DNA from: Sphingomonadales bacterium
GTDB taxonomy: Bacteria; Bacteroidota; Bacteroidia; UBA7662
Assembly: GCA_016872215.1 (NCBI GenBank)
Contig: VHAX01000018.1
Location: forward strand, 1 to 43,391
Reading direction: 5' to 3'
Length of the DNA: 43,391 bases
Below are positions 3,250 to 43,391 of this stretch, piece after piece. A model generated the notes under the pieces. That model had not been told where the DNA came from, made no database searches, and worked only from the letters and a program-made list of their open reading frames with translations. The position numbers were made by a program, and so were the translations under genes. Positions within the stretch are counted from its first letter, which is position 1. The number at the start of each line of letters is the position of its first letter.

Positions 3250-3318
3250 TCGCGTCCGTACCTGTGCCATTTTTCATCCCTTTTGCCCGTCCACCGTCCC
3301 ACTTCCCGTTCCATATTT

Positions 3319-3456
3319 CCATCCCTTTTCCCCGCCCACCTTCCCTCTTCCTCGTCTCTTTTCCAGTCCCACTTTCCATCCCGCTTTCCATCCCTTTTCC
3401 CCGCCCACCTTCCCTCTTCCTCGTCTCTTTTCCAGTCCCACTTTCCATCCCGTTTT
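3319..3456. repeat. Two tandem 69-bp pyrimidine-rich repeat copies
   Basis: Copies at 3319-3387 and 3388-3456 are almost identical and begin CCATCCCTTTTCC. They sit in a longer spacer (3250-3532) that is strongly C/T-rich on this strand throughout, so it is a purine-rich tract on the other. ORFs seen here on either strand are low-complexity products of the repeat and are not taken as genes. Nothing else was found in the spacer. Confidence 0.85.
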
Positions 3457-3532
3457 CTCGTCCCTCTAATCCCCCCTGATTCTTCCCCCTTTTTCCTCAC
3501 ATTCCCCGTATCCCTCCCCCTTTTCCATTCCG

Positions 3533-33609: not shown

Positions 33610-33645
33610 AAAAAAAAACATCCCCGGATCAGAAACCCGGGGATG
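33610..33645 (-). terminator. Strong rho-independent terminator of the six-module secreted protein gene
   Basis: CATCCCCGG (33619-33627) and CCGGGGATG (33637-33645) form a perfect 9-bp stem with a 9-base loop. On the minus strand nine consecutive Ts follow (33618-33610). It lies about 30 bases after the stop of the large gene and insulates it from guaB. Confidence 0.9.
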
Positions 33646-33677
33646 CACCACAAAACCCTGAATCCAGGATTTGTCAA

Positions 33678-36600
33678 TTACGGCAAGCGCGTGATGCGAA
33701 GCGTTTTGGACTCGCTTCCAGCCGTGTTGCGGCTTTCGATGTTTAAAAGATACTGCCCGGCAGAAGGCATATCGATGCTGAGGTTATGCTTGCCAGCGGC
33801 TAAGGCCGTCCAATCGCTCGAAGTGATGGTTCTTCCCATCAGATCCGAAAGAACATAACGAACGTCAGAATTCTGCGCCATTGAAATGGAAATGGTTGAT
33901 GCGCCACGGCTTGGATTCGGGTAAACTACAGCCGAGAAATGGGCCAAATCGGCATTCCCCACCAAGCGTAGCACTGCATTTTGAATGGGCTCTGCTTGTA
34001 GGTCGGCTATCTCGCTGTTCTCTGTCAACTGAATCGATGAGAAATCGGCTTGTTTCGGTGCGTTTTCAAAGCTGATGTAACCTAAGGTGCTGCCGGCTGA
34101 TACCCGCACACCTTTTAGATCATACCATGAAATGTGCAGTACCCCTTGTTCTTGATTCCAAATCAGGTTGCCGCCTAATATATCAGATGAGAAGCGTGCT
34201 TCTCCCAAATGAGTGGGAATTGGGATATGAAGGGTTACAGCACCCAAGTGCATCAACTCCGGGGCCACAATCGCAAGCGTTCCGGATGGAAGTGTGCTGC
34301 TGGTTTCATGGCGGGAATCAAAAGCAACGCCAGACATGGTGCGTGCGCCTGGATTGAAGCTGCCATTTACATCGCCAATGCAGATGCCTTTGATAGCGCT
34401 TTGCTGCAGTACCCCACCACTAAGCGTAACTGTTGGAGATTGGAAGAACCAATTTCCAGCGGTGAAAGAGGTAATTTGACTGACCGTACGGCGCGAGATT
34501 TGGAGGGCATCGGTCGCATTGATGCTGTTGCTTGCATTCACATCGGCTGCATTGATCCGAATGCCTGAGAGCAATTGGGTATTGGAGAAATGACGGGCTA
34601 CGTTTAAGGCATCCGTCGAGTTAACCCCTCCCCAGGTGCGGTTGGTGGTGGTTTGCAGGGTGTAGGTTCCGGAAGGCACTTGGGTGAACTGGTATTGTCC
34701 TGCTGCGTTGGTTGTGGCAGACATAAACGATGCGCCTTGGGCGTTAACGAGACTAACTACGCAGTTCGACAAAGTGGCTTGCGCGCTGTTGTCGTAGACG
34801 ATGGTCCCAGACAAATTGGTGCCGCTTGGGCAAACACTGCAACTCTGCCAGCAAACTGCGGGTAGGATGGTGTCGCGCGTTGGAACAAGGTAGCGGTTCG
34901 TGTAAGGACCAGTGGTGAGCACACACGAGCTTCCAGGTGTCATGGCTTCGGCCACTGCCCAGCCATTTACAGTAAATAGATATTCCACACCTGTGGTTGG
35001 AACATTCACCGTAAGTGCATAGATGCCATCGTTGTCTGGGTCGGTCATCACCGCACAAGAGCCACACCATCCATTGAAGTTTCCGTTGAGGTTCACCTGA
35101 CCTATGCTTCCTGTGTAGTTGTTCATATTGACACGGAATGTTACGTTGGCTGAAACAGGAATTCCCGTACAAGGAGCGCAGGTGCCGTAGCATACAGGGT
35201 CTAATGTTGTGGCGCCTGTGAAGGTCAATACCCGGTTTGTGAAGCCGAAATTGGTTTGAGTGCAAGAGCTGCCGGGTGTCAGGCTTTCTTGACCGTTCCA
35301 TCCATCTAAGGTGAACTTGTACTCAATGGTACCAGGCAAGAGTGGAAGCGTTACTTCCCAAATGCTGTCGTTGTTGGCATCGGTCATGGGGTTACATGCA
35401 CCACACCATCCGTTGAATGTGCCATTAACGAAAACGCCTGTGAAGGCGGCGCCGTTGTAGTCAGACATATCAACCTTAAATGTAACGTTGACTGGTGTGG
35501 GCGCAGCGGTGGTACAAACCGCGCAGCTGTTCCAACACACGGCGTCTAATGTGGAAGCGGCAGCGATGGTGTATACCCGATTGGTGAAACCGCCTGTAGT
35601 GAGCACACATGAGCCACCAGGAGTGAGGTTCTCCTGACCCGTCCACCCATCAACCGTAAACTTGTACTCAATCAAACCAGCAGGAAGCGGTAGCGTCACC
35701 TCCCAAATGGAGTCGTTATTGGCGTCGGATAATGGGTTACACGATCCACACCAACCGTTGAAGGTGCCGTTGACGTTCACCGTAGTGTAGGCTGCTCCTG
35801 TGTATCCACGCATATTCACCTTAAAGGTAGTGGCAAAGGTTGGGGGCGCGAAAACGCATGCCGAACAAGATTCCCAACAAACGGCATCGAGGGTTGTGGC
35901 TCCACCCACATTGAATGAACGATTGGTAAAGCCTCCCGTCGTGATCACACATGTGCCGCCTGGAGTCAAATTCTCAGAAATATTCCAACCGTCGAGAGTG
36001 AACTTATACTCTATAGCACCAGTAGGTAAGGGAAGGGTAACCTCCCAGATGCTGTCGTTGTTGGCATCGGTCATGGGATTGCAACTTCCGCACCATCCAT
36101 TGAAGGTGCCGTTCACAAAAACACCTGAGTAGGCTGCTCCCGTATACCGACGCATGTCGACTTTGAAAGTGACGGGAAAAGTTGGGGGCGCACAAACGTT
36201 GCAGCTGTTCCAGCATACTGCAGGAAGGGTGGCCGTACCGGCCACGGCGTACACACGGTTGGTGTTTGGTCCGGTGGTGAGCACGCACGATGTACCAGCT
36301 GTCAGGTTCTCCTGTCCGTTCCATCCATCCACGGTAAACTTATACTCGATGGTCATGGCCTGCAAGGGTAGGGTAATTTCGTAGATGCTGTCGTTGTTGG
36401 CGTCGGTCATCACATTACATCCACCGCACCATCCATTGAAGGTGCCGTTGATGTTTACGGTGCTGTAGGCCGGACCGGTATAGCCCCGCATATTAACCTG
36501 AAATGTTACATTATAGGTGGGCGGAGGTGGAGCAGTGCAGGTATTACAGCTGTTCCAACAAACTGCATCGAGTGTGGCCGTCGCAGCAACTGTATAGACA

Positions 36601-36926
36601 CGATTGGTGAATCCGCCTGTGGTAAGCACACATGAGCCACCGGGAGTGAGGTTCTCTTGGCCCGTCCACCCATCAACTGTAAATTTATATTCTATGGTTC
36701 CTGCTTGAAGGGGTAGCGTCACCTCCCAAATGGAGTCGTTATTGACGTCGGTCATCGGATTACATCCGCCACACCAACCATTGAATGTTCCATTCACATT
36801 CACAGTGGTGTAGGCCGCGCCCGAATAACCCCGCATATTCACCCGGAAGGTGATATCGGATGTTTGGGCCATCGCGCCGAAAGACATCAGCAACGAAAGG
36901 CAGATTAAGAAAAAATGTTTAAACAT
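33678..36926 (-). CDS. T9SS-exported protein with six glycogen/starch-binding-like modules and a dockerin-like segment
   Basis: 1082 residues. Signal peptide MFKHFFLICLSLLMSFGAMA. Residues about 22-695 are six tandem copies of a module of 113-115 residues: VNMRGYTGAAY, VNGTFNGWCG-C, NDSIWEVTLPL, IEYKFTVDGW, ENLTPGGSCVLTTG and AVCWNSC. The VNGTFNGW ... EYKFTVDG core matches CBM20/CBM48-type E-set modules that bind alpha-glucans; the paired cysteines look like disulfides. Next comes a Cna_B-like/dockerin-like part (TDALNVARHF, DVNASNSINATDALQISRR), and the last 82 residues are a type A sorting domain (VYPNPSRGASTISI ... to RITRLP). No catalytic domain is seen. It ends at a strong terminator and is separated from the GH16 gene by a minisatellite. 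Confidence 0.9.
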   Translation of the reverse strand: MFKHFFLICLSLLMSFGAMAQTSDITFRVNMRGYSGAAYTTVNVNGTFNGWCGGCNPMTDVNNDSIWEVTLPLQAGTIEYKFTVDGWTGQENLTPGGSCVLTTGGFTNRVYTVAATATLDAVCWNSCNTCTAPPPPTYNVTFQVNMRGYTGPAYSTVNINGTFNGWCGGCNVMTDANNDSIYEITLPLQAMTIEYKFTVDGWNGQENLTAGTSCVLTTGPNTNRVYAVAGTATLPAVCWNSCNVCAPPTFPVTFKVDMRRYTGAAYSGVFVNGTFNGWCGSCNPMTDANNDSIWEVTLPLPTGAIEYKFTLDGWNISENLTPGGTCVITTGGFTNRSFNVGGATTLDAVCWESCSACVFAPPTFATTFKVNMRGYTGAAYTTVNVNGTFNGWCGSCNPLSDANNDSIWEVTLPLPAGLIEYKFTVDGWTGQENLTPGGSCVLTTGGFTNRVYTIAAASTLDAVCWNSCAVCTTAAPTPVNVTFKVDMSDYNGAAFTGVFVNGTFNGWCGACNPMTDANNDSIWEVTLPLLPGTIEYKFTLDGWNGQESLTPGSSCTQTNFGFTNRVLTFTGATTLDPVCYGTCAPCTGIPVSANVTFRVNMNNYTGSIGQVNLNGNFNGWCGSCAVMTDPDNDGIYALTVNVPTTGVEYLFTVNGWAVAEAMTPGSSCVLTTGPYTNRYLVPTRDTILPAVCWQSCSVCPSGTNLSGTIVYDNSAQATLSNCVVSLVNAQGASFMSATTNAAGQYQFTQVPSGTYTLQTTTNRTWGGVNSTDALNVARHFSNTQLLSGIRINAADVNASNSINATDALQISRRTVSQITSFTAGNWFFQSPTVTLSGGVLQQSAIKGICIGDVNGSFNPGARTMSGVAFDSRHETSSTLPSGTLAIVAPELMHLGAVTLHIPIPTHLGEARFSSDILGGNLIWNQEQGVLHISWYDLKGVRVSAGSTLGYISFENAPKQADFSSIQLTENSEIADLQAEPIQNAVLRLVGNADLAHFSAVVYPNPSRGASTISISMAQNSDVRYVLSDLMGRTITSSDWTALAAGKHNLSIDMPSAGQYLLNIESRNTAGSESKTLRITRLP
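34835..36863. repeat. Six tandem ~340-bp coding repeats
   Basis: The DNA of the large secreted protein gene is itself repetitive here, with six copies of about 340 bases encoding the binding-like modules. Copies 1-5 are close in sequence, the last is the most diverged. Such arrays can gain or lose units by recombination, and they are a risk for assembly collapse. Confidence 0.85.
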
Positions 36927-36961: not shown

Positions 36962-36980
36962 AAGTGTATATTTTACACTT
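36962..36980. promoter_or_regulatory. Palindrome AAGTGTA-N5-TACACTT upstream of the six-module gene
   Basis: Perfect 7-base arms (36962-36968 and 36974-36980) lie about 35 bases upstream of the ATG at 36926, followed by another AAGTGT at 36988-36993. The position fits an operator, but a hairpin in the leader is equally possible; no -7 box was found with confidence. Confidence 0.4.
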
Positions 36981-37081
36981 GCTAAATAAGTGTTTTTTTT
37001 ACAATTATCCAAATGCAATGGGGCGATTAATTTTTATAATGTTTTTGCGTGGGTAGATTTGGGTTTGATGGGTTTTGCTTT

Positions 37082-37457
37082 GGTTCGAAAGGGTTCGCCA
37101 GGGTTTGATGCATTTTGTTAAGGTTCGCCAGGGTTAGATGCAGCTTGCTAAGGTTCGAAAGAATTTGATGGGTTTTGCTTTGGTTCGAAAGGGCTCGCCA
37201 GGGTTTGATGCATTTTGCTAAGGTTCGCCAGGGTTAGATGCAGCTTGCTAAGGTTCGAAAGAATTTGATGCAGTTTGCTTTGGTTCGAAAGGGCTCGCCA
37301 GGGTTTGATGCATTTTGCTAAGGTTCGCCAGGGTTTGATGCATTTTGCTAAGGTTCGAAAGAATTTGATGCAGTTTGCTTTGGTTCGAAAGGGCTCGCCA
37401 GGGTTTGATGCATTTCACAAAGATTCGATGGGGTTCGAAAGGGCTCGATGGGGCTTG
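37082..37457. repeat. Minisatellite with 100-bp higher-order period
   Basis: GGTTCGAAAGGG-type units begin at exactly 37082, 37182, 37282 and 37382. Each 100-base block is built of one 40-base and two 30-base sub-units (GGTTCGCCAGGGTTTGATGC-type and GGTTCGAAAGAATTTGATGC-type), so there are three full blocks and a partial one. Shorter fragments extend left to about 37050. On the right the degenerate end runs to the GH16 stop codon and its last bases code for the protein's final residues. The spacer 36927-37457 has no gene; ORFs on the plus strand here are repeat products. Confidence 0.88.
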
Positions 37458-38327
37458 CTAAGGCTCGATGGGGATGTAGGTGAAGGACCGAATCACCACC
37501 TCATGTTCTTTGCCATCTGATGGGCCAGCGCCCCCCAAAAGCCAGTAATTCATGCGGGTACGGGTGTTGTTTTCGGGCGCAGGGATCACAATGGGTACCG
37601 ATTGTTGTCCACCTTCATTTTTAATGCGGGCAGGGTTATTCGAATTGAATTTCCACTTTCCAATCACCCGGCCGCCTGTGCCTTCGCCGGCCCAACTCGT
37701 CCATTCAATCAAGGTGTCGCGCCAAACAAACTCATGGGTGGTCACCCCGATGAGGTCGCCGGGGTAGGTGGCTACTCCACGGACACGCTCGGGGTAATAT
37801 GGACCAAAATTAACAGGTTGAACGGCGTAGTTGAGGGTAGGCGCGTTGTTCTCCCCCCATTTGGCGAACTCAATATCAACCTCACTGTTGGCCTGGCTTC
37901 GAAAAGAACTATCGTTCCAAGTGAAGAGGCCCACCACCGTATTGTTGGCGATGTTCTGTAGGTCACCCTCAATTACCCAGCGGTAGGTGCCATAGCCGCA
38001 GGTATCGCGGCCGACCAGTTCCGTTGAATACCAACGACCATCGTGCTCGGCAATACGCAAATGCAAATAGCCTTTTCCATCCAGAAAAAGATCCTCGGCC
38101 CGACCCGAAAAGTAATTGGGACCAGGGCCAACGCTTCCGAGGCTCGTTTTCACATCCCATACCTTACCTGAAAAGCGCACCACATTGCCCACGCGTCCAT
38201 AATCCGGCGGGCGCTCCAGTTCGCAAGACTGAATAAAAATCAGAACGAAAGCGAACCCCACCAAGGGGAATTGAAACATCCGCTGTCGAAGGGCGGCGCA
38301 TACATCACGAATAATCACTAAAGACAT
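37458..38327 (-). CDS. Glycoside hydrolase family 16 lipoprotein (beta-glucanase type)
   Basis: 289 residues from the ATG at 38327. The signal ends in IFIQSC (Cys35), a lipobox, so the enzyme should be membrane-anchored. The GH16 active-site motif is SEVDIEF: Glu149 (nucleophile), Asp151 and Glu153 (acid/base), intact. GTYRWVIEGDL before it and HEFVWRDTLIEWTSW after it fit the jelly-roll fold. GH16 enzymes cleave beta-1,3/1,4-glucans, agar, carrageenan and xyloglucan; with the adjacent GH3 the most likely target is a laminarin-like beta-glucan (inference). An ATG at 38279 would give a shorter signal without positive charges. It starts 16 bases after the GH3 stop. Confidence 0.85.
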   Translation of the reverse strand: MSLVIIRDVCAALRQRMFQFPLVGFAFVLIFIQSCELERPPDYGRVGNVVRFSGKVWDVKTSLGSVGPGPNYFSGRAEDLFLDGKGYLHLRIAEHDGRWYSTELVGRDTCGYGTYRWVIEGDLQNIANNTVVGLFTWNDSSFRSQANSEVDIEFAKWGENNAPTLNYAVQPVNFGPYYPERVRGVATYPGDLIGVTTHEFVWRDTLIEWTSWAGEGTGGRVIGKWKFNSNNPARIKNEGGQQSVPIVIPAPENNTRTRMNYWLLGGAGPSDGKEHEVVIRSFTYIPIEP

Positions 38328-38343
38328 GTTATAAAATTGAAAA

Positions 38344-40668
38344 TCATGGAATCCATTCCCATCGTGTCTGTAGCGAGCCAACCTGAAGCGTAAACCATCC
38401 TGGCTCGAGGGTATGCTTGAGGTCACGCCCCACAAAGCCCAATGATGCCAAGGGAAACACCAAATCAACCTCCGCAGAGGCACCGGATTGAAGCACAACA
38501 GGTTTGATTGCCCTCAATCGCTTCGCAGGGGGGGTAATACTCGCCACGGAATCACTTACAAATGCCATAACGGTCTCCTTTTGGGTATAGCCACCCTCAT
38601 TGCGGAGACGAACACGCACGCGCAAACTGTCCGTTGCACGGGCAGGCAGGGGCTGCAGCAGTTCCAAGGTTTCATAGCGGATGGGAGCGTAGCCGAGTCC
38701 GTGGCCAAACGCATATGCCGGTTGGAAGGCATTCATAGAGAAATCGGTATGAAGCCGCTCCGTATGCTTGTGGTCGTAGGTCATCAAACTATGTTCGTGG
38801 GCAGGGTATGTATAGGGCAAACGGCCGGATGGACTATACCTACCGCAAAGGAGTTCCGCTAGGCTGCGCGTACCTGCCGCCCCCGGTTGGTTGGAGAGGA
38901 GGATTGCATCGAATAATGAGTCGATACTGGATATGATCCGCGGGCGGTTCTGCACGAGTACCAGAATTTTTGGGCCCGCGTGGGCCGCACAAAGACGCCG
39001 AATCCACGCAATTTCATCAGCGGGCAGGCTTAATTGCTCAATATCGCCCGGTTTTTCTGTGGATGGTTTTTCACCGAGTACCAGGATCAGGGGTGGTTGT
39101 TCTTTATCTGTTCGCATCGATTGAAGGGTGTTGGCCTCTACCCTCGCTTCGGGTGCGAACGCACGGGGTGCGGGAATGGTCAGACCCAATTGAAAATACT
39201 CCTTAAGCGCCTCGATTAAAGAAATACCCGCATTAATGGTGTCCCACTTCGGATCGACGCCCTGCCAAGTACGCGACCAAGCACCATTCCAACAAAAAGG
39301 CTCATCCAAGGCTTGGCCAGCCAAAACCACCGGGCTGCCTTTGGTCAAAGGCAGCAGCTGTCGGCGGTTTTTCAGCAGAATCCAAGAACTCCGGGCCGAT
39401 TCCATATTGAGTTTTTGAAAGGTATCGGTCTGCATCAGAGGAAATTGGCTCAAAGGCTCCGGAAGTTGTCGGTTATAGAGGCCCAAGCTGTATTTCACAT
39501 GAAGAATTCGGTAGACCGCTTCATCGATTCGCTTCATAGGAACTTCTCCCGACCCGGCCAATTCTATCAAGGCATCCGTAAATCGGTAGTCATTGGGCAC
39601 CATAGCCAGATCGACCCCGGCCATCACGGCCATTCGCGTGGCTTCCTTGTAGTTTGCCGCCACACGGTGAACGGTCACCAGCTTCTCAATGTCTTCCCAA
39701 TCGGACACCACCAAGCCCTGAAATCCCAATTCCTTCCGCAGTAGGTTGGTCAATATTTCAGGATCTGCATGGACCGGAATGCCGTTGAGTTCGCCTGAAT
39801 TGACCATCACACTGAGGGCTCCGGCCCGGATGCCGGCTACAAAAGGAGGTAATATCCATTCCCTTAATTGTCTTGGGTGGATGTAGGTCGGCGTTCGGTC
39901 CTTTCCTGTGCGGGGCATACCATAACCCAGAAAATGCTTCATGGTTGCGGCCACCTGGTTCGGCCGAGAGGGGTCTGATCCCTGATAACCTCTGATGCAA
40001 GCGGCGCCCAGCTGCGAAACGAGCTGGGGGTCCTCACCATAGGTTTCAAAGAAGCGCGACCACAACGGATGTCGGGCTACATCGAGTACGGGTGAAAAAT
40101 TCCATGGGATGCCTGAGGCAGCGGTTTGATAAGCGGCTGCCATGGCCACACGCCGCACGAGTGCCGAATCAAAGGAGGCCGCCTGAGCCAATGGCTGTGG
40201 AAAAAGCAGACCTTCATGCAGATAATTTGCGCCGTGTATGGCATCGATCCCATAAAGAAGCGGGATAAAGCTGCCGGGTGCTTGCTTAGCGAGCTTGTTG
40301 AGGGTGGATTGTATGGAGCGCCAGTGCTCAAGCGAATAAGCGTGTCCGCCGCAATTCAAAATGGAACCCACTTTCCGGGTATGGAGGGCCTCCTTCAATT
40401 TTACGGTATCAAGCTTGTGCGGCTCTTTCAGATTGTAGATTTCACCAACCGATACGACATCGAGATTCAGCTGGGTCATTTGCCCTACTTTTTCTTTTAG
40501 CGTCAGGGATTGGAGCGCTGCTTGGATTTCGCGGTGATAGGGACTCCGGGTACTGGTTTTTTGGGCCGAAACAGAGAAAGCGCTTAAGCAAAACAAAGCG
40601 TTTAAGCAAAACAGAGCGCTTAAGCAATATAAAGCAAAAATACCGCGTATGATCGTTCTGATTTGCAT
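38344..40668 (-). CDS. Glycoside hydrolase family 3 beta-glucosidase
   Basis: 774 residues with a signal peptide ending in SVSA-Q (about residue 35). The GH3 N-terminal barrel has TLKEKVGQMTQLN, YGIDAIHGANYL, ETYGEDPQLVSQLG, MKHFLGYGMPRTGKDRTP and the nucleophile Asp323 in LVVSDWEDIEKL. The C-terminal half has the GH3_C sandwich and fibronectin-like end (LRAIKPVVLQSGASAEVDLV). It releases glucose from oligosaccharides made by endo-enzymes such as the adjacent GH16, in the periplasm. The signal-peptide hydrophobic core is built of three hexapeptide repeats (see repeat at 40577). GH16 is 16 bases downstream. Confidence 0.94.
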   Translation of the reverse strand: MQIRTIIRGIFALYCLSALFCLNALFCLSAFSVSAQKTSTRSPYHREIQAALQSLTLKEKVGQMTQLNLDVVSVGEIYNLKEPHKLDTVKLKEALHTRKVGSILNCGGHAYSLEHWRSIQSTLNKLAKQAPGSFIPLLYGIDAIHGANYLHEGLLFPQPLAQAASFDSALVRRVAMAAAYQTAASGIPWNFSPVLDVARHPLWSRFFETYGEDPQLVSQLGAACIRGYQGSDPSRPNQVAATMKHFLGYGMPRTGKDRTPTYIHPRQLREWILPPFVAGIRAGALSVMVNSGELNGIPVHADPEILTNLLRKELGFQGLVVSDWEDIEKLVTVHRVAANYKEATRMAVMAGVDLAMVPNDYRFTDALIELAGSGEVPMKRIDEAVYRILHVKYSLGLYNRQLPEPLSQFPLMQTDTFQKLNMESARSSWILLKNRRQLLPLTKGSPVVLAGQALDEPFCWNGAWSRTWQGVDPKWDTINAGISLIEALKEYFQLGLTIPAPRAFAPEARVEANTLQSMRTDKEQPPLILVLGEKPSTEKPGDIEQLSLPADEIAWIRRLCAAHAGPKILVLVQNRPRIISSIDSLFDAILLSNQPGAAGTRSLAELLCGRYSPSGRLPYTYPAHEHSLMTYDHKHTERLHTDFSMNAFQPAYAFGHGLGYAPIRYETLELLQPLPARATDSLRVRVRLRNEGGYTQKETVMAFVSDSVASITPPAKRLRAIKPVVLQSGASAEVDLVFPLASLGFVGRDLKHTLEPGWFTLQVGSLQTRWEWIP
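40577..40630. repeat. Three 18-bp repeats inside the GH3 signal-peptide coding region
   Basis: Copies at 40577-40594, 40595-40612 and 40613-40630 (AAAGCGCTTAAGCAAAAC type) encode the hydrophobic LFCLSA/LFCLNA hexapeptides of the signal peptide. In-frame unit change would lengthen or shorten the h-region without a frameshift. Confidence 0.8.
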
Positions 40669-40757: not shown

Positions 40758-41831
40758 TTAACGAGCAAACTCTTCCGCTTGGAGGGCACCCCAAATCAAT
40801 GGGCGAGTAGGTTTTTGAGTATTTGCTTGAAAAGAGAGGTAATAAGGTTGATTTTTGAGGATACCTGGGTGTCGGTCAGGGGGAAGGTCAATGCGCAAAC
40901 AGGGAATCCCAGGAGTAAAACCGTCATCAACGGTCGTAACACTCCTTTTAACGAAAGAAGATTCGGACAGAAAGACGAAATCACTGAGTTTGCCTGCGCG
41001 TCTCATTCTAGCCTGTTCGGGTAGAGCAGAAAGGGTAAAGGTACCAGTAGGTAGCGTATCAAACGGACTGAAAAGCACTATTTCCTTCCCATTTTTCCAT
41101 AAGCCTTTCCACGTATGGGGGGGATTGCCTGAATGCGGTACCCATGTAATTTCATCAATCGCCATATTTCCCCGCGCCTCAAATTGGATGATGAGTTGTT
41201 TAATCTGGGCAGGTTGGGCCAGGCTGCGTTCCCATTCGAAATCTTCTAAAGGCAAGCGCAGTTCATTCCACTCTGTGCTGTTTAGTCCGGCTTTGTTCAG
41301 GTATTTGGCCTGAAATCCAAGCCAGCACTGGGCTCCGCTGTAATCTTCAAGCGCAAAAGCCACAGGTATGTTCTTTGGCTGACCCTCTAAAGCCTTGAGG
41401 CGAATATTAAGTGCAGCATGATGGATTACTTGCTCCATATTTTTGGGCGCCCAAGCATCCCATCCCATGCCGAGACCGATCCAGTTTGGGCAACCTTCAG
41501 CGAGCTTATCCCACTCCAAGGCCAATCCTTGAGATCCATCAGGGTCATTGAAGGGCGAAACATTCAAGCAAGGCGTTCTGCTGCTCCAAATTTCACTGCT
41601 CATGCCCCCTTTATACACATCAAGTGCTCGAAAACCAAAAATGTTGGGATCTTCCTCCTCAGAATGATCCGAATAGAGCGATTGACCACTCATTCGATTC
41701 TTGCGGGCAGTCACTTCAACACGATCTAATTGGATCACGGGCTGGGCCTGCAAGGAGACGTCATTGCCAAAGAGCATCCATAGCCCGCAACCAATCGTAT
41801 ACCGGATCAATTTAGGGCTCAAGCGGGGCAT
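40758..41831 (-). CDS. Secreted protein with CBM11/CIA30-like (galactose-binding-like) region, unknown function
   Basis: 357 residues from the ATG at 41831. A signal peptide (IRYTIGCGLWMLFGNDVSLQA) precedes the mature start. The central part (about residues 105-250) has alternating beta-strand segments: AALNIRLKALEGQPKNIPVAFA, GAQCWLGFQAKYL, STEWNELRLPLEDFEWER and NMAIDEITWVPHSG. This pattern is typical of CBM11/CIA30-type jelly-rolls that bind beta-glucans. No catalytic residues are recognised. The 5' end overlaps the upstream lipoprotein gene by 20 bases, so the two are coupled. A longer frame to 41966 exists but is not preferred, since it overlaps more. A binding or structural role in the glycan locus is inferred from position. 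Confidence 0.68.
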   Translation of the reverse strand: MPRLSPKLIRYTIGCGLWMLFGNDVSLQAQPVIQLDRVEVTARKNRMSGQSLYSDHSEEEDPNIFGFRALDVYKGGMSSEIWSSRTPCLNVSPFNDPDGSQGLALEWDKLAEGCPNWIGLGMGWDAWAPKNMEQVIHHAALNIRLKALEGQPKNIPVAFALEDYSGAQCWLGFQAKYLNKAGLNSTEWNELRLPLEDFEWERSLAQPAQIKQLIIQFEARGNMAIDEITWVPHSGNPPHTWKGLWKNGKEIVLFSPFDTLPTGTFTLSALPEQARMRRAGKLSDFVFLSESSFVKRSVTTVDDGFTPGIPCLRIDLPPDRHPGILKNQPYYLSFQANTQKPTRPLIWGALQAEEFAR

Positions 41832-42837
41832 TTTCTGTGAAGATGATATAATCCATATACATTTGAGAATAGCCAGAAGTAGGGTTGGCCAAAAACAAGG
41901 CAGAAATTCTGGATAGTTTGTCGGGGTCATGGCGGCCATTACCCGCTGGTGTAGAGGGTTGGCCATTCACCAAAGAAACCAATTCATTGTAGCGCACACT
42001 GATTTTGTTCCACCCCTTTTGAAGACGTTGATGAGCGCCGTTAACTGTGTAGGCCGCGCATTGGAGCGAGTAGAGGTCTTCGGTTGCCGCTTCAAAGGTG
42101 CCGTTGCCATTGTCGTCCTCACGGAATTGAAACAGCAACAGAGCATTTTCTACTGAATCGGGAAGATAGAGCAGGGTATTGAAGTAGAGCTTTTCGGGAT
42201 TGGAGATCAGCGGAAAGCGCGGTGCTTGGTAGGCCGAGGCAGGAAATTCAATCATTCCAATCAGCCAGTCCCAGTTTACCAAGCCCCCCATATCGTAATA
42301 GCGATTGCCTTGGGCCGCACTGCTGTTTTGGCGGACCACAAAACTCATGTTGGCTCCGCTTTGTACGAAGCTGGTCCATCCCGGACGAATACCCGTTTCG
42401 AAGTCGGCCACCACAAAGCCCTCAATCAAGCGGGTGCTCGTGATCGACACGGTATCGCGCCATAAGACAGAATCTTCTGCGATGATTAACTTCATTTCAA
42501 CCGATTCCTCTTTAAACATGGGGAAAATGGTCGTGCTGCCGTTCCACCGGCAATTGGTAGAATCGAGGAAGCGCGTTTTTCCGGTGATGGATTTCCGGGC
42601 CCCGCTGTTTAGACCCGTACAAACGAGCTCCCAATCGGTGAGCTTATTAAAACGTGCCTGCAAAAACAACAAATCACCCTGTGCAAAATCGGCTTGTTTT
42701 TGGTTGATTTGAACCGGTTGTAAGACCTGAAAATCGCCGAATAGGTCCAGGAGCTCCGGGCCATCAACAGGGATGTCTTTGCTGCAGCCGTAGGTCAGCA
42801 GCAACAACAGGACAGGCAAGCGTAGGAGGTGTTTCAT
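41812..42837 (-). CDS. Lipoprotein of the glycan locus, unknown function
   Basis: 341 residues with a lipoprotein signal ending in LLTYGC (Cys18). The second half (about residues 140-335) has a beta-rich pattern like the neighbour: VVADFETGIRPGWTSF, NRYYDMGGLVNWDWLIGMIE, and SQMYMDYIIFTENAPL at the end, resembling CBM11-like or surface glycan-binding lipoproteins. No SusD features (TPR-like helices) are seen, so it is not a normal SusD. It overlaps the next gene by 20 bases. Its position between a barrel protein and the hydrolases suggests a surface glycan-binding role (inference). Confidence 0.68.
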   Translation of the reverse strand: MKHLLRLPVLLLLLTYGCSKDIPVDGPELLDLFGDFQVLQPVQINQKQADFAQGDLLFLQARFNKLTDWELVCTGLNSGARKSITGKTRFLDSTNCRWNGSTTIFPMFKEESVEMKLIIAEDSVLWRDTVSITSTRLIEGFVVADFETGIRPGWTSFVQSGANMSFVVRQNSSAAQGNRYYDMGGLVNWDWLIGMIEFPASAYQAPRFPLISNPEKLYFNTLLYLPDSVENALLLFQFREDDNGNGTFEAATEDLYSLQCAAYTVNGAHQRLQKGWNKISVRYNELVSLVNGQPSTPAGNGRHDPDKLSRISALFLANPTSGYSQMYMDYIIFTENAPLEP

Positions 42838-42927: not shown

Positions 42928-43391
42928 TTATAGTTTCATGACCAACAAGATGGAGGCGGAGTTCCAACGTATTTTGGGTGAAACCGATTCGGAGGGGGGC
43001 ATCCATTGGTAGTTGTATGCCATGCATTGTGCCTGAAACCGGTTCGAAACCCGATAGTTGAGTCCAACGCCTGCCCAGTGTTCGGTGCGGTTCATGCTCA
43101 TCGGGAGATAGTCGATGACTTCGGAATAGGCGTTGCGCACCCCATAGAAATCCTGGCCATGAGACGAGTAATTTCTCCACTCAGCAAAAACCTGCCATTC
43201 GGGCGAGATCTGCCATTCGGTTTGTAGCTGCAGCAGGCGATTGGTCAGATCCACACGCGTATCAATCAGATCCCCTATACCGTCGGCCCGGGACGTATTT
43301 TCTAAACGCGCCGATGCCCTCAACCACCACGATTTATTCCATCCCAGGATCACGTGCAGCGGTGCGGCGCCGTTCCATTCTGCGATGGCGA
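42928..43391 (-). CDS. C-terminal part of an outer-membrane beta-barrel protein (5' end outside window)
   Basis: The frame is open from the window edge to the stop at 42928-42930; the GTG at 43353 is not taken as the start because the coding pattern continues upstream (AIAEWNGAAPLHVILGWNKS). The visible part alternates amphipathic strands with aromatic belts: WWLRASARLENTSR, LLQLQTEWQISPEWQVFAEW, MNRTEHWAGVGLNYRVSNRF and the end WNSASILLVMKL, as in outer-membrane barrels. The family cannot be named: it could be a small porin-like barrel or the end of a larger one. It is the upstream gene of the glycan locus. Confidence 0.7.
   Translation of the reverse strand, partial: AIAEWNGAAPLHVILGWNKSWWLRASARLENTSRADGIGDLIDTRVDLTNRLLQLQTEWQISPEWQVFAEWRNYSSHGQDFYGVRNAYSEVIDYLPMSMNRTEHWAGVGLNYRVSNRFQAQCMAYNYQWMPPSESVSPKIRWNSASILLVMKL

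Follow-up and report, generated by a model that had tools for sequence, protein, structure and literature searches.

Which glycan does an array of CBM48-like modules hold when its gene lies in a beta-glucan locus? The question is raised by a 43,391-nucleotide contig (VHAX01000018.1, assembly GCA_016872215.1; a Bacteroidota genome deposited as Sphingomonadales bacterium), here called the window, in which positions 33678 to 36926 of the minus strand encode a protein with six such modules, the array protein. A CBM48-type domain normally holds starch or glycogen, and alpha-glucan binding is usually tied to the family. Laminarin, a beta-glucan, is a major algal storage polysaccharide. The answer that we favour, with somewhat better than even confidence, is that the array protein belongs to a regulon for the use of beta-1,3(-1,6)-glucan (laminarin-type), in which it captures the glucan as a multivalent, non-catalytic binder, its ligand being read from gene context.

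The open reading frame of the array gene starts with ATG and codes for 1082 residues. Its parts are listed below, with the source of each assignment in brackets.

33678–36926, minus strand: whole gene of the six-module array protein, 1082 aa, putatively exported by the type IX secretion system, T9SS (Pfam, NCBIfam, sequence reading)
36867–36926, minus strand: predicted signal peptide, aa 1–20, MFKHFFLICLSLLMSFGAMA (by eye from the sequence)
36537–36854, minus strand: module 1, six-cysteine, CBM48-like, with predicted structure (Pfam, AlphaFold2, Foldseek, VIA)
36192–36509, minus strand: module 2 (Pfam)
35856–36173, minus strand: module 3 (Pfam; the phmmer match is the AMPK beta-1 glycogen-binding domain)
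35514–35828, minus strand: module 4 (Pfam)
35169–35486, minus strand: module 5 (Pfam)
34830–35144, minus strand: module 6, the most divergent, 47–57% identical to the other modules (Pfam, identity)
34647–34814, minus strand: CarboxypepD_reg / SdrD_B-like domain, aa 705–760 (Pfam)
34491–34631, minus strand: dockerin type I-like repeat, aa 766–812, with an incomplete first calcium loop (Pfam)
33951–34331, minus strand: cohesin-like domain, aa 866–992 (hhalign against the PF00963 cohesins of this genome)
33681–33926, minus strand: T9SS type A sorting domain, aa 1001–1082 (Pfam, NCBIfam TIGR04183)

Pfam places CBM_48 (PF02922) on six stretches of the protein (E 2e-43, 147 bits against a cut-off of 22.4) and AMPK1_CBM (PF16561) on five (9e-39), and also matches CarboxypepD_reg. 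The C-terminus matches Por_Secre_tail (39 bits, cut-off 27) and TIGR04183, the NCBIfam model of the T9SS type A tail (43.8 bits, cut-off 23). No catalytic domain was detected in the Pfam and NCBIfam domain searches. An earlier note on this DNA, made without database searches, had described a tandem non-catalytic binder with six cysteine-bearing modules and a type A sorting domain, and these features are all recovered here. Judged from its sequence, the protein would be exported through Sec and the type IX system to the cell surface or the medium. The genome encodes SprA (SprA_N match of 6.1e-162 on contig C27; the only T9SS component searched), which is consistent with a working T9SS.

Each module spans about 106 residues and contains six cysteines at fixed positions, in the order CxxC, C and Cx3CxxC, which may pair as disulfides. 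Of the 39 cysteines in the protein, 36 fall within modules; cysteine makes up 5.7% of the residues there vs 0.5% in the C-terminal part. Identity among the six is 47–88% at the protein level and 53–78% at the DNA level. Searched with the module profile, GTDB genomes gave at least 348 confirmed matches, showing that six-cysteine modules are widespread in Bacteroidota. From the matches listed, 78 loci were kept, nearly all from metagenome-assembled genomes labelled Bacteroidota, many of them from lakes, ponds and the sea. Phaeocystidibacter luteus (L149) is a cultured relative that has the locus. Exactly six cysteines are present in 304 of the 351 full-length modules collected, and the array gene is conserved in relatives; a chance origin of the array is therefore excluded. 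The collected module proteins carry from 1 to 11 modules each. The array with 11 is a very large protein, holding them in 1708 residues (L153:5843-10969), and a 3268-residue protein combines seven modules with MAM, LTD and fn3 domains (L121:2521-12327). A plasmid search with one module as query gave no match.

The alignment of modules from the window and from related loci holds 97 sequences. The AlphaFold2 model of module 1 has a mean predicted local distance difference test (pLDDT) score of 96.7. Foldseek places this model nearest, among PDB entries, to the AMPK beta-1 glycogen-binding domain (E 1.1e-4) and, close behind, to the CBM48 domains of feruloyl esterases; AMPK again ranks first in a profile search of PDB sequences. 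In VIA the model aligns with the CBM20 of STBD1 over 85 residues (Z 10.8, root mean square deviation 2.3) and with AMPK 1z0m over 82 residues (Z 9.7, deviation 2.4), so that, for this model, VIA does not clearly separate CBM20 from CBM48. The predicted fold is the E-set beta-sandwich of CBM20/48, as the earlier note had expected, and no non-CBM fold was obtained. By profile and fold together the modules belong in CBM48; of the former label CBM20/48-like, the CBM48 half agrees with the CBM48 and AMPK1_CBM profiles and the CBM20 half is loose.

The sequences suggest that the AMPK-type glucan platform is kept, with the binding aromatics in place. W27, K57, W63 and N84 are conserved in 97, 95, 91 and 98% of the 351 modules. 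A profile alignment sets them against the Trp of FNNW, the Lys of YKF, the Trp following VDG and the Asn of TVN in AMPK, which we take to be W100, K126, W133 and N150. In module 6 of the window protein, Leu replaces the platform Lys. E67 (98%) and R85 (100%) are near-invariant in the same 351 modules and have no obvious AMPK counterpart in the profile alignment.

Gene linkage was counted in the 51 loci whose flanks reach 8 kb or more; close relatives are included, and the counts are not independent. GH16 occurs in 27 of these loci, a GH16-fold protein in 5, GH3 in 19 and an NrtR regulator in 26, with SusC plus SusD in 18 and GH149 together with GH30 in 4. At least one beta-1,3-glucan-type enzyme is present in 32/51 and some locus marker in 43/51. 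The genomes are 1.7–6.2 Mb in size and contain only 0–4 GH16 genes (31 of the genomes with these loci searched), and chance co-occurrence in a 20-kb stretch is thus of the order of 1–2% by our estimate, in which the loci are not independent. The few GH13 matches in linked loci were due to the C-terminal cassette shared by the query, not to amylase domains; after these tail matches were set aside, no GH13 was left in the linked loci.

The strongest single items for a beta-glucan context are the GH16 fusions. In L128:1477-3165 a GH16 laminarinase domain (closest PDB chain 6jh5, LamCAT, E 5.7e-74) stands N-terminal to two modules and a T9SS tail, and in L117:2648-3808 one module precedes a GH16-fold domain. 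Locus L093 has its module gene beside genes for NrtR, an MFS-type transporter, GH16, GH30, GH149 and a GH81-like protein. The GH149 there is a beta-1,3-glucan phosphorylase by score (1538.8 bits, cut-off 1150), and the GH81-like gene falls below its cut-off. In L092 and L130 the module gene adjoins SusC, SusD, a PKD protein and GH16.

The whole locus is carried on one contig of the congener G003 (L065). It comprises the genes of a T9SS protein with three modules, a regulator of the Nudix/NrtR type, a GH2-like TIM-barrel protein, four conserved proteins, GH3 and a GH16-fold lipoprotein, together with a seven-module version of the array gene. Three proteins at L065:6768-11178 (p501, p596 and p341) have no Pfam match and are kept with the modules across several families. 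In the window genome a three-module paralogue, truncated by the contig edge, lies on another contig (C45, positions 1-787; L062). Synteny with G003 suggests that this contig follows the window on its right side, across a gap of several kb. A search of the genome for the GH2-like neighbour gave no match; the stretch between the two contigs is thus unseen or absent. The GH13 genes of this genome sit on contigs other than that of the array, and a GH13-dockerin protein on contig C15 is without the modules. The array thus lies in a conserved beta-glucan locus, with GH16 fusions and without GH13 in the linked loci, and for these reasons the glycogen or starch assignment of the earlier note is not supported.

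In the window, the five genes directly upstream of the array gene share its strand.

37461–38327, minus strand: 289-aa lipoprotein with a predicted GH16 fold and invariant ExDxE (structure model, family alignment)
38344–40668, minus strand: GH3, beta-glucosidase (Pfam; the nearest NCBIfam model, exo-beta-1,3/1,6-glucosidase, is well below cut-off)
40758–41966, minus strand: 402-aa CBM30-like conserved locus protein (weak Pfam match)
41812–42837, minus strand: 341-aa conserved locus lipoprotein (conserved in related loci)
42928–43389, minus strand: conserved p596 locus protein, 3' end, truncated by the contig edge (related loci)

The 289-residue lipoprotein was not found to be GH16 by sequence, whether through Pfam, phmmer, a PDB profile search or hhalign against one GH16. 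Its model (pLDDT 82) aligns with a GH16 endo-beta-1,3-glucanase at Z 18.2 and likewise with 1,3-1,4-glucanases at 18.2. E149, D151 and E153 are invariant in 18 sequences, and a distant homologue, L183, passes PF00722 (23.4 bits, cut-off 22). The predicted structure and the wider family settle the fold as GH16; since the protein itself has no PF00722 match, we name it GH16-fold and not GH16. Neither the window locus nor that of G003 shows a SusC/SusD pair in the genes covered.

Several repeats were observed around these genes. A tandem repeat at 37061–37415 (100-bp period, 3.4 copies, 96% matches) lies in the gap that separates the array gene from the GH16-fold gene, and is not seen in the same gap of G003 and L083. 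At 40577–40635, 18-bp repeats enlarge the region of the GH3 signal peptide (ALFCLN-type), and the equivalent place in the congener (L065 from 12336) is expanded by other repeats. C-rich tandem repeats with periods of 33–69 bp occur at window positions 3267–3465.

Two further elements flank the array gene.

36962–36980, unstranded: perfect 19-bp palindrome AAGTGTATATTTTACACTT, candidate operator (35 bp upstream of the array start codon)
33618–33646, minus strand: strong terminator-like hairpin of 13 pairs with a T-rich tail, directly 3' of the array gene (sequence)

Even when one mismatch is allowed, the window holds no second copy of the palindrome. Sites resembling it precede other array genes, including the paralogue on C45, and occur in intergenic regions between regulator and array genes. 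Counted at 12 of 14 arm positions, the site occurs in 16/95 module genes, 4/34 regulator genes and 5/496 other genes (module vs other genes, Fisher P 6.5e-10; relatives are included and the P value is indicative). Permuted arms gave 0.1 module matches on average and at most 1. The Nudix (NrtR-type) regulator probably acts through this palindrome.

The arrays themselves vary among close relatives, with six modules in the window protein vs seven in G003. Five of the G003 modules match window modules 1, 2, 3, 5 and 6 at 88–90% DNA identity, and its second module has no close counterpart in the window. For window module 4, the identities to G003 modules 1 and 5 are almost the same (82 and 80%), which fits an exchange between copies. 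An assembly error in the count of six is possible.

The C-terminal part of the array protein is of another kind. Dockerin_1 (PF00404) matches residues 766–812 with 30.9 bits against a cut-off of 22.9. Since the alignment begins only at profile position 8, the first of the two calcium loops is incomplete; the second, DVNASNSINATD, is canonical, so that of the two loops read earlier one stands in full. Residues 866–992, overlooked in the earlier note, are absent from the PF00963 search list and match the cohesins of the genome in hhalign (97.7%, E 1.9e-12), and the dockerin part does not match them. The cassette is thus composed of a dockerin-like, a cohesin-like and a T9SS tail part. The genome has 19 dockerins by PF00404, 18 of them over cut-off, and nine PF00963 cohesin matches over cut-off. 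About 18 further proteins encoded by the 2.1-Mb genome contain a counterpart of residues 704–1082, complete or partial. The dockerin tail is a generic cassette of its secretome, not special to the array protein. A scaffoldin reading, with the array protein as an enzyme organiser, was set aside, as a tail found on about 18 other proteins says nothing specific. No Dockerin_1 was found at E 0.01 in 17 array proteins scanned from other lineages; in this family the dockerin was thus apparently added. The combination that had seemed unfamiliar consists of modules widespread in Bacteroidota and of a tail that is genuine and generic to the genome.

Other cohesin proteins were seen in the same genome. 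On contig C15 (33000-45000, L172) a three-cohesin protein with a dockerin tail adjoins GH13 amylase-like and protease-like proteins that share the same tail, a possible cohesin-dockerin cluster in T9SS Bacteroidota. Contigs C16 (L168) and C11 (L169) encode large proteins of T9SS type that contain two or three cohesin domains; the one on C11 follows a dockerin-tailed 2470-residue protein.

A working model can be proposed for the favoured reading. After export, six weak sites in series on disulfide-stiffened modules would hold glucan by avidity, each through its platform of two Trp, Lys and Asn, or, in module 6, without the Lys. The neighbouring GH16-fold lipoprotein and GH3 beta-glucosidase would cut the held glucan for uptake, and the products would pass to the uptake proteins of the locus. 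The regulator would control the array gene through the upstream palindrome. The dockerin and cohesin-like tail may link the array protein to other surface proteins with the same cassette.

Several points weigh against this reading. Genomic context is indirect evidence for a ligand, and the conserved platform residues bind alpha-glucan in AMPK. No listed beta-1,3-glucanase is present in 19 of the 51 loci, 11 of which carry other locus genes, and the GH16-fold neighbour in the window misses the PF00722 cut-off. Some esterases have CBM48 domains that bound none of the glycans offered to them (PMC8040265). That the modules bind alpha-glucan, starch or glycogen, with the beta-glucan locus reflecting use of mixed algal storage glucans, is suggested by the nearest profiles and folds, all from alpha-glucan binders (CBM48, AMPK and CBM20), and by the 91–98% conservation of the AMPK-type positions. 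However, GH13 is missing from the linked loci, two proteins are fused to GH16 domains, the GH13 genes of this genome lie on other contigs, and the GH13-dockerin protein of C15 does without the modules. A CBM48 fold without starch binding also has precedent, since the wtsFae1A/B domains are reported to lack it (PMC8040265). We consider alpha-glucan binding unlikely.

Another beta-glycan, such as mixed-linkage glucan, cellulose or fungal beta-1,6-glucan, is an improbable ligand, although the GH16-fold neighbour is equally near both kinds of glucanase, the GH30 of L093-type loci is nearest to an endo-1,6-beta-glucanase model (below cut-off) and the locus has a CBM30-like protein; the GH149 beta-1,3-glucan phosphorylase above its cut-off and the fused GH16, closest to laminarinases, both speak against it. 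A stalk, spacer or adhesin would be well served by tandem disulfide-rich E-set domains whose number differs between close relatives, and PMC8040265 describes two CBM48 domains, from D. mossii esterases, that failed to bind any glycan assayed. Yet platform residues conserved over hundreds of copies, in arrays that track glucanase loci, make a chiefly structural role as a rigid stalk, with glycan binding weak or absent, very unlikely. The boldest proposal is that the six-cysteine branch of CBM48 switched from alpha-1,4- to beta-1,3-glucan and that the dockerin and cohesin-like domains build a T9SS-exported, cellulosome-like complex that captures glucan at the surface of an aquatic Bacteroidota; as a whole it is quite doubtful.

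Comparison with known systems places the capture protein among familiar parts. With CBM48 and AMPK1_CBM the modules share profile matches over cut-off, the E-set fold and the platform positions, and they differ in the six conserved cysteines, in the near-invariant E67 and R85, in the tandem non-catalytic arrays and in a context of beta-glucan instead of alpha-glucan enzymes. Surface glycan-binding proteins (SGBPs) generally use other folds and lipid anchors. The CBM48 domains of CE1 feruloyl esterases (wtsFae1A/B, 6RZN, 8BF3; DmCE1B) have the same fold, but each is a single module packed on the esterase in a xylan context, and the available part of PMC8040265 does not describe the six-cysteine array pattern for them. 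Laminarin polysaccharide utilisation loci with SGBPs (BfSGBP-B; Maribacter GH16_3) likewise have a non-catalytic binder by GH16 and GH3 (PMC11345257), and SusC/D occur in many relatives of the array locus; here, in contrast, the modules are CBM48-like with a T9SS tail, and the window version of the locus is without SusC/D. By this analogy the array system may work like such a locus, with another binding fold and export route. CBM92 binders are another family, likened to the array by the principle of multivalent beta-glucan binding (PMC11039641). Sas20, of the cellulosome and amylosome dockerin proteins, is also a dockerin-bearing glucan binder in a surface complex (PMC9112005); the array protein differs by having a T9SS tail and a cohesin-like domain in one chain, and any pairing of it with a cohesin is putative. 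The literature searched, which covered subscription journals thinly, held no description of six-cysteine CBM48 arrays at loci of this kind or of a link between CBM48 and laminarin, and did not report beta-1,3-glucan as a ligand for the CBM48-type family.

If laminarin is what the modules bind, many Bacteroidota genomes misannotate a widespread module group, at present called CBM48 or glycogen-recognition, and a testable part in beta-glucan capture could be given to hundreds of T9SS proteins that are still uncharacterised. The modules would then offer a direct case of an alpha-glucan platform changing its ligand. The natural arrays of 1 to 11 modules would also provide a matched set for measuring avidity.

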